Shown here: one piece after another, positions 6,443 to 10,824 of the stretch
How positions within the stretch are numbered: the first letter of the stretch is position 1
Layout of the letters: every line of letters begins with the position of its first letter
Origin: Armatimonadota bacterium
GTDB lineage: Bacteria > Armatimonadota > Fimbriimonadia > Fimbriimonadales > Fimbriimonadaceae
Assembly: GCA_018268355.1 (NCBI GenBank)
Contig: JAFDWR010000004.1
Span: forward strand, 434,404-498,403
Direction of reading: 5' to 3'
Length of the DNA stretch: 64,000 bases
Translations under genes and position numbers: made by a program
The notes under the pieces: generated by a model
Told to the model about the DNA's origin: nothing
The model's database searches: none
Seen by the model: the letters and a program-made list of their open reading frames with translations, nothing else

Positions 6443-6564
6443 GCTGTGTTGATGCCGCCCTGCGGCGACGAAAGTATATCACGGAGCGTCAAATCCTCCC
6501 GTTTTCAGTTCGGGGACAAAGTCCCGGTGCGAACTTTTCGCGGGCCTTCCTCGTTCGGTTGTGT

Positions 6565-7713
6565 ATGAGAGCGAGAGCGGTTTTGGGAGTTCTGGTCGGG
6601 CTGGTTTCGTTGTCCCGGGCCTGCATGTGGGACTACGACACCTTTGCCGAAGAGGCTCGGGGCCGCGACGACACGGTCGGGACCCTGCTGGGCATCTACC
6701 GGCCGTATCCGCCGTTCTACTACGAGAAGCGGATCGAGATCATGCGGTCGAAGATCGCCGCGAACCCCAAGGACGCGGATGCCTATGACAACATGGCGGT
6801 TGCCTATGCACGGCTGAACCGTCCAGATGAGGCCTTGGCCGCGATTGAGTCGAAGAAGACGGCCATTGGTGCCACCCCCGGCACGACGCCCGACTGGTAC
6901 CGGTTCTATTCCAACCGCGGCAGCTTCTATCTGATGAAGTGGGCGGGTAGCTCTGATAAGAAGGCCGCTCTGCCGATCCTGGACAAGGGGATCAGCGACA
7001 TCGAGAACGCGCTGAAGATCGATGTCAACGCGCACTTCGGGCGGGAGAAGTATCAGCTCTTCTACATGCAGTGGCTCCGGAAGTGGGTGGTGACTCCGGA
7101 GAAGATGGCAAAGCCAGAATTCTCAACTTTGCCAACCACTTTCTCGACTTACATTCAGGAACAAAACCTCGGCGATGGCAAGACGAGGGAGGTGGCCCTC
7201 GCCGGACTCATCCGGCTAGGGACGGCCTGGGATAACGTTGACATCGTGCATGCTCTTGAAGGCGCTCTGGCAGGACGGCGTAATGCCTCGATTGCGGCAT
7301 TGGCCAGGCGTAGATTGGAGGCTATTGAGCGCGAGCACCCAAAGACTTCAATGACGGGACAGAGTCTGGTGTCGGAGTTTGGGGGCAGAGCAGCTTCGAT
7401 CACGGCGGGCACGCTCGACAAGTTGATCCCCCAAGCAGAGGCCTACGTTCGGACGCGGGACGAGTGGGTTCTCCAACAGCTTAAGGCCGGCAAACACCCA
7501 GACACGGATCCGAACTTCTGGAGTGGCTTACCTGAACCCAAACTTGACTACGGTCCGGGCGGATTCTGGTACCGGCTAATGCGCCCCCAATCGTGGCATC
7601 CGGCTCTCATGATGTTCACGGCACTTTGCATGGTTGTTCTGGGTCCCATTGGGCTCATGAAAGGACTCCGCTGGATATTCCGCCGATGGCAGAGCCGAAG
7701 GGCTGCTTCCTAG
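6565..7713 (+). CDS. TPR-containing membrane-anchored protein, copy 1 of a tandem pair
   Basis: A 382-residue protein from ATG at 6565; the TTG two codons upstream is less likely, since the paralogue also starts at MRARAV. An N-terminal hydrophobic segment (about 3-19) is a signal or anchor. A TPR-like unit follows (NPKDADAYDNMAVAYARLNRPDEALAAIE, about 68-96, given here only as position and pattern). A C-terminal membrane helix (about 345-367) ends in a basic tail. Function is unknown. The first ~185 residues are nearly identical to the next gene, and the middle is not. Confidence 0.78.
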   Translation: MRARAVLGVLVGLVSLSRACMWDYDTFAEEARGRDDTVGTLLGIYRPYPPFYYEKRIEIMRSKIAANPKDADAYDNMAVAYARLNRPDEALAAIESKKTAIGATPGTTPDWYRFYSNRGSFYLMKWAGSSDKKAALPILDKGISDIENALKIDVNAHFGREKYQLFYMQWLRKWVVTPEKMAKPEFSTLPTTFSTYIQEQNLGDGKTREVALAGLIRLGTAWDNVDIVHALEGALAGRRNASIAALARRRLEAIEREHPKTSMTGQSLVSEFGGRAASITAGTLDKLIPQAEAYVRTRDEWVLQQLKAGKHPDTDPNFWSGLPEPKLDYGPGGFWYRLMRPQSWHPALMMFTALCMVVLGPIGLMKGLRWIFRRWQSRRAAS

Positions 7714-7775
7714 TACACGGCCGTTCGGTAAAGCGACCTTCGAACTTTCCAGGCTCTGGCCTCGTTCAATTCGAT

Positions 7776-8933
7776 ATGAGAGCGAGAGCGGTTTTGGGAA
7801 TTCTGATCGGGCTGGTTTCATTGTCCCGGGGCTGCATGTGGGACTACGACACCTTTGCCGAGGAGGCTCGAGGGCGCGATGACACGGTGGGGACCCTGCT
7901 CGGGATCTACCGGCCGTATCCGCCGCTCTACTACGAAAAGCGGATCGAGATCATGCGATCGAAGATCGCCGCGAACCCCGAGGACGCGGACGCCTACGAC
8001 AACATGGCGGTTGCCTATGCACGGCTGAATCGCCCTGATGAGGCCTTGGCCGCGATCGAGTCGAAGAAGACCGCCATTGGCGCAACCCCGGGGACAACGC
8101 CCGATTGGTACCGGTTCTATTCCAACCGGGGCAGCTTCTACCTGATGAAGTGGGCGGGTTCAAAGGACCGAAAGGCGGCCCTTCCGGTTCTCGACAAGGG
8201 CATCAGCGACATTGAAAACGCGCTGAAGATCGATGTCAACGCGCACTTCGGGCGGGAGAGATTTCAGTTGGCCTACATGAAGTGGTTGAGGGAGAGAACT
8301 CTGAAACCCAGTCCGCCCTCGCAGAGCCCCGAGTTCAAGGAGACTCTCTTCAGTCGGTGGCTCGAAGACCATGGGTCGGGAACGAGGCTGGAGACTGAAA
8401 TTGCACTTGCCGGATTGATCCGGCTCGGAACAGCATGGGAAAACGCCGACATTGCTGAGGCCTTGCATGAGACTATCATCGACGACAAGCTGAACTCAAT
8501 CGCGGAGCTTTCCCGGTCTCGCCTTTACGATATCCAGGCGATCAATCCGAAATCGTCATACACAGGCTCTAAGCTCGTAGCGGAGGGAGTGGGTATCCCA
8601 CCGGACGGGACGCTTCAACTTGTGCGAGACCTGCAGCGCGAGGCCATGACCTACCTGATAAGTCGCGACCAGTTCATCACGAGTCAGATCAAGGCTGGAA
8701 AGCATCCCGACACTGACGAGAAGTTTTGGGAGCGTGCGCCAGCCGCGAAGTTCGACTATGGACCCGACGGCAGGCTGATGCGCTTCGTGAGGATCGATTC
8801 CTGGAACGCTACGTACGTTGTCCTTGCCGTTATTGGATTGCTGCATCTCGCATGGGTGATCCTGTTCAAGTTGGGCCGCTTCATTCATCGGCGAATCAAT
8901 CGCCGTCGAATCCCGCCGATCGTCACCCCCTAA
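7776..8933 (+). CDS. TPR-containing membrane-anchored protein, copy 2 of a tandem pair
   Basis: A 385-residue paralogue of the preceding gene, starting at the matching ATG (7776). The frame is open further upstream to 7593, but that stretch overlaps copy 1 and is unsupported. Residues 1 to about 185 match copy 1 almost exactly, covering the signal segment, WDYDTFAEEARGRDDT and the TPR block. Residues 190-320 diverge strongly, with short islands such as ALAGLIRLGTAW retained. The C-terminus has its own membrane helix and Arg-rich tail. The pair probably arose by tandem duplication. It is followed by a strong hairpin. Confidence 0.78.
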   Translation: MRARAVLGILIGLVSLSRGCMWDYDTFAEEARGRDDTVGTLLGIYRPYPPLYYEKRIEIMRSKIAANPEDADAYDNMAVAYARLNRPDEALAAIESKKTAIGATPGTTPDWYRFYSNRGSFYLMKWAGSKDRKAALPVLDKGISDIENALKIDVNAHFGRERFQLAYMKWLRERTLKPSPPSQSPEFKETLFSRWLEDHGSGTRLETEIALAGLIRLGTAWENADIAEALHETIIDDKLNSIAELSRSRLYDIQAINPKSSYTGSKLVAEGVGIPPDGTLQLVRDLQREAMTYLISRDQFITSQIKAGKHPDTDEKFWERAPAAKFDYGPDGRLMRFVRIDSWNATYVVLAVIGLLHLAWVILFKLGRFIHRRINRRRIPPIVTP

Positions 8934-10177: not shown

Positions 10178-10360
10178 GGTTGGGAACTCCTGTGTTCTCT
10201 CCTCAGTTTACCGATGGCACCGTCGAATGATGGGGTCGGGAATCTGGAAGTGCGGTCGCCCCAACGCACCTTTACGAGTTTTTTGAAAATTTTTTCGGAA
10301 AACCCTGAGGAACGGTTAGAAAGTTGCCGACGTCCCTAATAAGTCGGCTCGGAAACGGGC
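10178..10360. other. Non-coding leader region upstream of the flgM riboswitch
   Basis: This 183-base gap between the divergent hmgA start and the riboswitch holds no credible gene. It contains an A/T-rich patch (about 10271-10300) that is a plausible place for promoters. I could not identify a convincing sigma-70, sigma-28 or sigma-54 promoter pair. Confidence 0.5.
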
Positions 10361-10460
10361 CAGGCAGAAAAAGGCACGACAGGGGCGACCCTGCTCACGC
10401 AAAGCCCATGGGTCTTCGGGCGCTGGAGAATGGCGGGAAGACAGCCGGGTTACCTGTCTG
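10361..10460 (+). ncRNA. Cyclic-di-GMP-I (GEMM-I) riboswitch aptamer
   Basis: The segment carries the conserved blocks of this aptamer in order. A GGCA element (10373-10376) is followed by a 5-bp hairpin with a GCGA (GNRA) loop (10380-10393). The invariant ACGCAAAGC follows at 10397-10405. A second hairpin pairs GTCTTC (10412-10417) with GAAGAC (10437-10442), and AGCCGGGTTACC closes the core (10443-10454). The closing stem P1 pairs CAGGCA (10361-10366) with TGTCTG (10455-10460). The base equivalent to G20 of the Vibrio Vc2 aptamer is G, which fits c-di-GMP rather than cGAMP. The flgM ribosome-binding site GGAGGG lies 7 bases downstream, suggesting control of translation. The mechanism is inferred. 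Confidence 0.85.
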
Positions 10461-10480
10461 AATCGGCGGAGGGAACTCAA

Positions 10481-10750
10481 ATGCGGATTTCAGACATCGA
10501 AGTAAGCAAGGTTCGCGAGATTTCTCGCGAACCCCAAGATCAATTGACCGACGTCGAGACGCCGGTCTACGACCCAGCCCAGGACCGCGAGCTCGTCCAA
10601 CAAGTGACGCAAAGCATCAGCGAAATGGGTGACCGCGAAGACATGATCGCCTCGCTCAAGGCGCGCATCGAAGCCGGTGAATATAACCCGAGCGGCGACG
10701 ACATCGCCGACACCATGATCCGACGCGCGATTGCCGATCGGATTCGATAA
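10481..10750 (+). CDS. flgM: Anti-sigma-28 factor FlgM
   Basis: An 89-residue protein with the FlgM C-terminal signature. The helix RELVQQVTQSISEMGDREDMI leads into SLKARIEAGEYNPSGDDIADTMIRRAI, matching the usual V..lk..I..GtY.pd...iA..ml pattern (given as two short motifs at about 38-58 and 60-84). FlgM binds FliA (sigma 28) and blocks late flagellar genes until it is exported through the hook-basal body. The start at ATG 10481 is fixed by GGAGGG at 10468-10473. The gene stands alone directly behind the c-di-GMP riboswitch and is followed by an intrinsic terminator, so it is probably monocistronic. Confidence 0.86.
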   Translation: MRISDIEVSKVREISREPQDQLTDVETPVYDPAQDRELVQQVTQSISEMGDREDMIASLKARIEAGEYNPSGDDIADTMIRRAIADRIR

Positions 10751-10768: not shown

Positions 10769-10816
10769 GGCCCTTGCATCTCGACCGGGAGTTCCCCCGA
10801 GATTCAGGGGCCTTTT
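10769..10816 (+). terminator. Intrinsic terminator of flgM
   Basis: A 15-bp stem (10769-10783 with 10798-10812; one mismatch and one G-U) encloses a 14-base loop and is followed by TTTT. It starts 18 bases after the flgM stop. Confidence 0.75.
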
Positions 10817-10824
10817 CTCTGGGT

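Follow-up and report, generated by a model that had tools for sequence, protein, structure and literature searches.

In the window, meaning the whole stretch of 64,000 nucleotides analysed, the leader of the monocistronic flgM gene carries a c-di-GMP class I riboswitch that is probably a translational ON switch, and FlgM production most likely rises when c-di-GMP is high. Computation shows the aptamer, its conserved place before flgM, and a pair of helices that exclude each other, one of which, the anti-P1 helix, covaries; the identity of the ligand, the direction of control, the promoter, and the effect on sigma-28 are what we infer. The parts of the aptamer are given below, with aptamer positions numbered after PMC3764141.

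Positions 10363 to 10457, forward strand: c-di-GMP-I aptamer (RF01051), with G20 at 10373, A47 at 10401, and C92 at 10453.
Positions 10361 to 10367, forward strand: 5' strand of P1, CAGGCAG (inner five pairs 99% paired in 21 distinct leaders).
Positions 10385 to 10388, forward strand: GNRA tetraloop of P2 (GCGA), identified from the sequence.
Positions 10454 to 10460, forward strand: 3' strand of P1, CUGUCUG, common to P1 and the anti-P1 helix.

The preliminary description had proposed a c-di-GMP-I aptamer before flgM, with a core that includes a GNRA loop, ACGCAAAGCC, and AGCCGGGTTACC, and had named scoring against RF01051 as a check. These three elements are present (the loop being GCGA at 10385-10388), and cmscan matches RF01051 over its full length at 10363-10457 of the forward strand with 35.1 bits, which is above the gathering score of 35 by which membership of c-di-GMP-I is decided. 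The E-values are 0.0038 (window against all Rfam) and 3.8e-5 (genome), and this is the sole RF01051 match in the 2.7 Mb genome. Scores before flgM are 30-46 bits in close relatives and reach 86 bits in other families. By itself the marginal score of 35.1 bits would be weak evidence; it is the conservation of the element before flgM in relatives that confirms the match, and for this reason a chance Rfam match was rejected.

The search of relatives covered 101 genomes from the window's family, order, and phylum, with RF01051 found in 77 and FlgM in 79. At the level of the order, 71 genomes have Pfam FlgM; a Rfam-level aptamer lies directly upstream on the same strand in 60 of these, and six more have the aptamer core before flgM under the search threshold. 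Retention of the core in close relatives that keep flgM had been a further check, and its outcome (66 of 71), together with the RF01051 match, supports the earlier reading of a predicted c-di-GMP-I riboswitch on flgM. The remaining five genomes belong to two genera. In three of genus g4 (L113, L114, L115) the aptamer is lost and flgM looks leaderless, because a TATAAT-like box stands a few bases before its start codon; in two of genus g29 (L119, L120) flgM is kept, the aptamer is lost, and the genomes are small (1.5 Mb). Nine more genomes, all of one genus, have the aptamer before a FlgM-like open reading frame (ORF) scoring under the Pfam threshold. In the phylum sample, an even draw of 81 genomes in which adjacency was counted by hand from coordinates, the aptamer is directly upstream of flgM in 26 of the 47 flgM-bearing genomes outside the order. 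These aptamers are mostly canonical (about 45-86 bits) and come from ten families, so the association looks old in the phylum. The 14 control genomes had no RF01051, and FlgM was found in three of them (E. coli, B. subtilis, and T. maritima).

In most close relatives the flgM switch is the only class I switch found. Three relatives (L006, L007, and L011) have a second canonical aptamer of 68-80 bits before non-flgM sequence, and in other Armatimonadota c-di-GMP-I aptamers occur as pairs in tandem, spaced by about 20 bases and not upstream of flgM (G099:C116:12661-12861, G099:C93:57369-57570, G107:C49, G120:C3, and G136:C175). The FlgM encoded in the record JADZEW010000031.1 (L145) is of the Fimbriimonadaceae type; the record's title, Methanoregulaceae archaeon, probably stems from mislabelling or misbinning.

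All twelve scored pocket and core positions are present in the window (G20, G21, C22, A23, C44, G45, C46, A47-A49, C92, and C93), including the pocket bases G20, A47, A48, and C92 and the interhelical C44 expected of c-di-GMP-I. Over 73 leaders ten of the twelve are invariant, and G20 and C92 are each found in 72. An A at the G20 position is the mark of cGAMP-type class I aptamers (GEMM-Ib); the window has G at 10373, which argues for c-di-GMP over cGAMP as the predicted ligand. It is very unlikely that the aptamer senses another cyclic dinucleotide, for example 3',3'-cGAMP, given how nearly constant G20 and C92 are, although class I aptamers include cGAMP sensors, G20 is a selectivity factor in them and not an absolute filter (PMC9262584), and the relative G056 has A at this position. 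The G056 sequence (L015, G056:C32:9562-9636), which reads AGCAAACC and lies upstream of flgM, is the only leader with this A; its congener G044 has G.

The architecture is shared with c-di-GMP-I (GEMM-Ia) aptamers such as Vc2 of Vibrio cholerae, including G20, A47, C92, the interhelical C44-G83 pair, and the P2 GNRA loop. Unlike the Vc2 type, the Fimbriimonadaceae-type sequences have a standard pair at position 25-42 in the P2 internal loop (G-C 35, U-A 7, C-G 1, mismatched 2), where other sequences mostly have A.G, and a plain helix stands in P3 in place of the 11-nt tetraloop receptor, where the P2 GNRA loop docks in this class; the GCGA loop on P2 is kept. The low RF01051 score is attributed to this lineage-specific remodelling of P2 and loss of the receptor. 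The same two changes, and a score a mere 0.1 bit over the gathering score, might be taken to indicate a decayed aptamer that does not bind ligand, with only RNA structure around the flgM start left. This is highly improbable, as ten of the twelve pocket and core positions stay invariant while the stems vary, position 25-42 changes as whole pairs, and P1 is preserved alongside a helix that excludes it. In five leaders of family f5 of the order (L063, L078, L089, L090, and L110) the P2 loop is non-GNRA and the P3 loop is GUGA, an apparent relocation of the GNRA-type loop, as though it and its receptor had been swapped.

The downstream gene, the elements proposed to control its translation, and the terminator-like hairpin after it are listed next.

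Positions 10481 to 10750, forward strand: flgM, anti-sigma-28 factor, 89 aa (PF04316, 41.8 bits, cut-off 25).
Positions 10468 to 10472, forward strand: Shine-Dalgarno sequence GGAGG, 8 bases before the AUG.
About 10769 to 10820, forward strand: hairpin and U-tract resembling an intrinsic terminator, downstream of flgM (80-nt fold, -37 kcal/mol, z -3.2).
Positions 10455 to 10462, forward strand: leader strand of the anti-P1 helix, UGUCUGAA (alignment, shuffles, and free fold).
Positions 10489 to 10496, forward strand: coding strand of the anti-P1 helix, UUCAGACA, in flgM codons 3-6 (alignment, shuffles, and free fold).

The gap of 7 bases between switch and ribosome-binding site described earlier agrees with these coordinates, P1 ending at 10460 and GGAGG starting at 10468. 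The claim that flgM is the sole apparent target also stands, as the hairpin and U-tract follow flgM and no other forward-strand gene precedes the hairpin; a terminator pattern scanner did not list this hairpin, probably owing to its loop limits. The preliminary description gave neither a direction of control nor an expression platform; the leader comparisons add both, pointing to a translational ON switch with the anti-P1 helix as its platform.

The anti-P1 alignment contained 26 leaders (21 distinct), chosen solely by family and an adjacent P1. The P1 consensus of this clade is GRCAG/CUGUY, extended in the window to CAGGCAG/CUGUCUG. Across the 26 leaders UGUCUGAAA pairs in constant register with UUUCAGACR in flgM codons 3 to 6, and sliding the register by 1-3 bases reduces the pairing to 23-47%. 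Pairing occupies 95.8% of cells against 91.6% with shuffled partners (0/500 as high), the covariation score is 0.334 against 0.249 (0/500), a separate row shuffle gave 181 of 189 cells paired against a maximum of 179 in 5000 shuffles, and the leaders' own duplexes beat permuted ones (0/5000); these permutation tests ignore relatedness, and related sequences inflate their significance. The third base of a Ser codon, a synonymous position, covaries with its leader partner (U-A 16, C-G 4, G-U 1). The helix encloses both the Shine-Dalgarno sequence and the AUG, and since it shares a strand with P1 the two are mutually exclusive. In the minimum-energy fold of the window's leader P1 is open and its 3' strand is paired with the flgM start.

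With P1 forced, opening the start site costs on average 3.9 kcal/mol less, against 1.2 less in shuffled leaders, and the effect is above the leader's own shuffled mean in 24 of 24 leaders; for the window's leader alone the values are 3.9 and 2.2 +- 2.4, a difference that is not significant. A remnant hairpin of five pairs can still cover the start site in this state. A conserved, start-covering helix that excludes the ligand-stabilised helix is what characterises a translational riboswitch; the anti-P1 helix is of this kind, and an effect on translation is predicted from it. Sequestration of the Shine-Dalgarno sequence alone was rejected for this clade, its accessibility being 0.27 both free and with P1 forced and duplexes between the post-aptamer segment and the ribosome-binding site (RBS) being no better than permuted ones. 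The helix with the coding sequence accounts for the pattern in its place.

In the ligand-free state, UGUCUG of the P1 3' strand, together with AA, would pair with flgM codons 3-6 and trap the Shine-Dalgarno sequence and AUG in the hairpin loop; with c-di-GMP, a stabilised P1 would reclaim the strand and leave the start site open. Since the ligand stacks on P1 in class I aptamers (PMC3764141), c-di-GMP should open the start site, as in an ON switch. The same aptamer and target could also form an OFF switch, in which ligand-bound P1 beside the Shine-Dalgarno sequence blocks ribosomes and c-di-GMP lowers FlgM. P1 is indeed close, with 5 bases between its end and the 8-base Shine-Dalgarno window; Shine-Dalgarno accessibility is unchanged in the window's folds; in G034, which fits the ON scheme poorly, P1 overlaps the only Shine-Dalgarno-like sequence; and both ON and OFF switches are known in class I (PMC9262584). 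The OFF arrangement is nevertheless unlikely: it leaves without a role the conserved, covarying helices, excluding P1 and covering the start in two clades, that an ON switch needs, and it would raise sigma-28 activity with c-di-GMP, contrary to the usual effect of this messenger, which shuts down motility via many proteins.

The second of these clades, a sister to that of the window, mostly has GUG starts and lacks a P1 immediately at the aptamer. The strand preceding the aptamer fits the segment just after it (-11.5 kcal/mol for own sequences and -8.6 for permuted, 0/5000) and also fits the RBS with the start codon (-14.0 and -12.1 kcal/mol, 1/5000), and the two pairings are mutually exclusive where the strands overlap. 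The sister clade would use another strand for the same exclusive ON logic. In a second family of the order P1 is long, with its own pairing better than permuted (0/5000); its 3' strand, CUGUCUCC, is complementary to the Shine-Dalgarno region, GGAGGCAG, a pairing too conserved for the permutation test. Some distant leaders carry U-runs, which suggest terminators. The platforms in the phylum would then comprise the 3' strand of P1 set against coding sequence or against the Shine-Dalgarno sequence, the 5' strand of P1 set against Shine-Dalgarno sequence and start codon, and possibly terminators in some families.

Transcription of flgM apparently starts at a sigma-28 promoter that precedes the aptamer.

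Positions 10305 to 10333, forward strand: putative sigma-28 promoter, CTGAGGAA-N13-GCCGACGT (motif; predicted transcript start near 10340).

Upstream of the aptamer, the strict form of a CTAAAGAA-N13/14-GCCGATA-like motif occurs in 17 of 73 leaders, where 0.065 would be expected, and a loose sigma-28-like form in 40 of 73, where 0.58 would be expected, mostly 48-59 bases ahead of P1. In the window the motif falls short of the consensus. Some other families have TAAAGTTT-N11-GCCGATAA, which we take to be the sigma-28 consensus. The strict pattern had no match near the genome's four flagellin genes; one flagellin upstream region (L133) has a similar motif, seen by eye only. The inverted repeat GCCGAC/GTCGGC at 10326-10350 was set aside as a regulatory hairpin, as it overlaps the putative -10 element.

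FlgM, the anti-sigma-28 factor, is the brake on late flagellar genes. The product of the window's gene belongs to this family by its PF04316 score (41.8 against 25 bits) and has a partner in the genome, which encodes one FliA above the family cut-off (235 against 189.6 bits). There are also four flagellin and seven GGDEF matches, so that the genome seems to have signal, anti-sigma factor, sigma factor, and target genes alike. The genes for MotB and MotA lie on the opposite strand, at a distance of about 2 kb. More FlgM would bind more FliA (sigma-28) and lower late flagellar transcription; sigma-28 would make the flgM message and c-di-GMP would set the share translated. With flgM apparently under a sigma-28 promoter, the riboswitch would determine the gain with which FlgM feeds back on sigma-28. 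Outside the window, the same genome has a 449-aa ORF (G000:C1:55750-56883; L138:1321-2670, forward strand) with sigma-70 regions 2, 3, and 4 fused to a GGDEF domain; it is FliA/WhiG-like (130.9 bits), has GKDGF instead of the GGDEF signature, and may be a sigma factor carrying a c-di-GMP-type sensor domain that is inactive. Within the window, two adjacent long ORFs on the forward strand (6559-7713 and 7593-8933) have near-identical N-terminal halves and form a tandem duplication.

Class I aptamers are known, whereas the expression platform, in which the P1 3' strand is set against flgM codons, is new here; a flgM target and an anti-P1 helix within coding sequence also separate this switch from the Vc2 type. 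The literature searched, which includes few subscription papers, described no c-di-GMP riboswitch on flgM, none in Armatimonadota, and no pairing of a P1 strand with flgM codons, though GEMM gene lists elsewhere could mention such a switch. In a 2020 study, c-di-GMP reportedly works through the anti-sigma factor that partners a FliA/WhiG-family sigma factor, targeting the complex of the proteins; here, RNA would instead control synthesis of the anti-sigma factor. In Clostridioides difficile, Cd1 precedes the early flagellar flgB operon, which includes sigD, and is a c-di-GMP-I transcriptional OFF switch (PMC6366702). At high c-di-GMP Cd1 lowers sigma-28-type activity in the operon of the sigma factor; the predicted translational ON switch would lower it through the anti-sigma gene. 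The E. coli small RNAs OmrA and OmrB repress flgM translation and change sigma-28 activity (PMC7549644), as post-transcriptional control of flgM is predicted to do here; unlike the riboswitch, they are trans-acting, repressing, and ligand-free.

A switch on an anti-sigma gene would join a second messenger and a flagellar checkpoint in one RNA that acts on feedback gain, a predicted direct link from the c-di-GMP signal to settle down to the instruction to stop making flagella. Since this is the only class I switch found in the genome and in most close relatives, it predicts a role for c-di-GMP in a phylum with little genetics. Homologous leaders with varied platforms and apparently one logic are natural material on the evolution of expression platforms, and the platform that uses flgM codons yields a testable claim on synonymous sites. 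Control of flgM by a c-di-GMP-I riboswitch may well be an ancient Armatimonadota trait by which the second messenger adjusts, via RNA, how strongly FlgM feeds back on sigma-28, its platform replaced several times with the ON logic kept and one form constraining synonymous positions in flgM codons.
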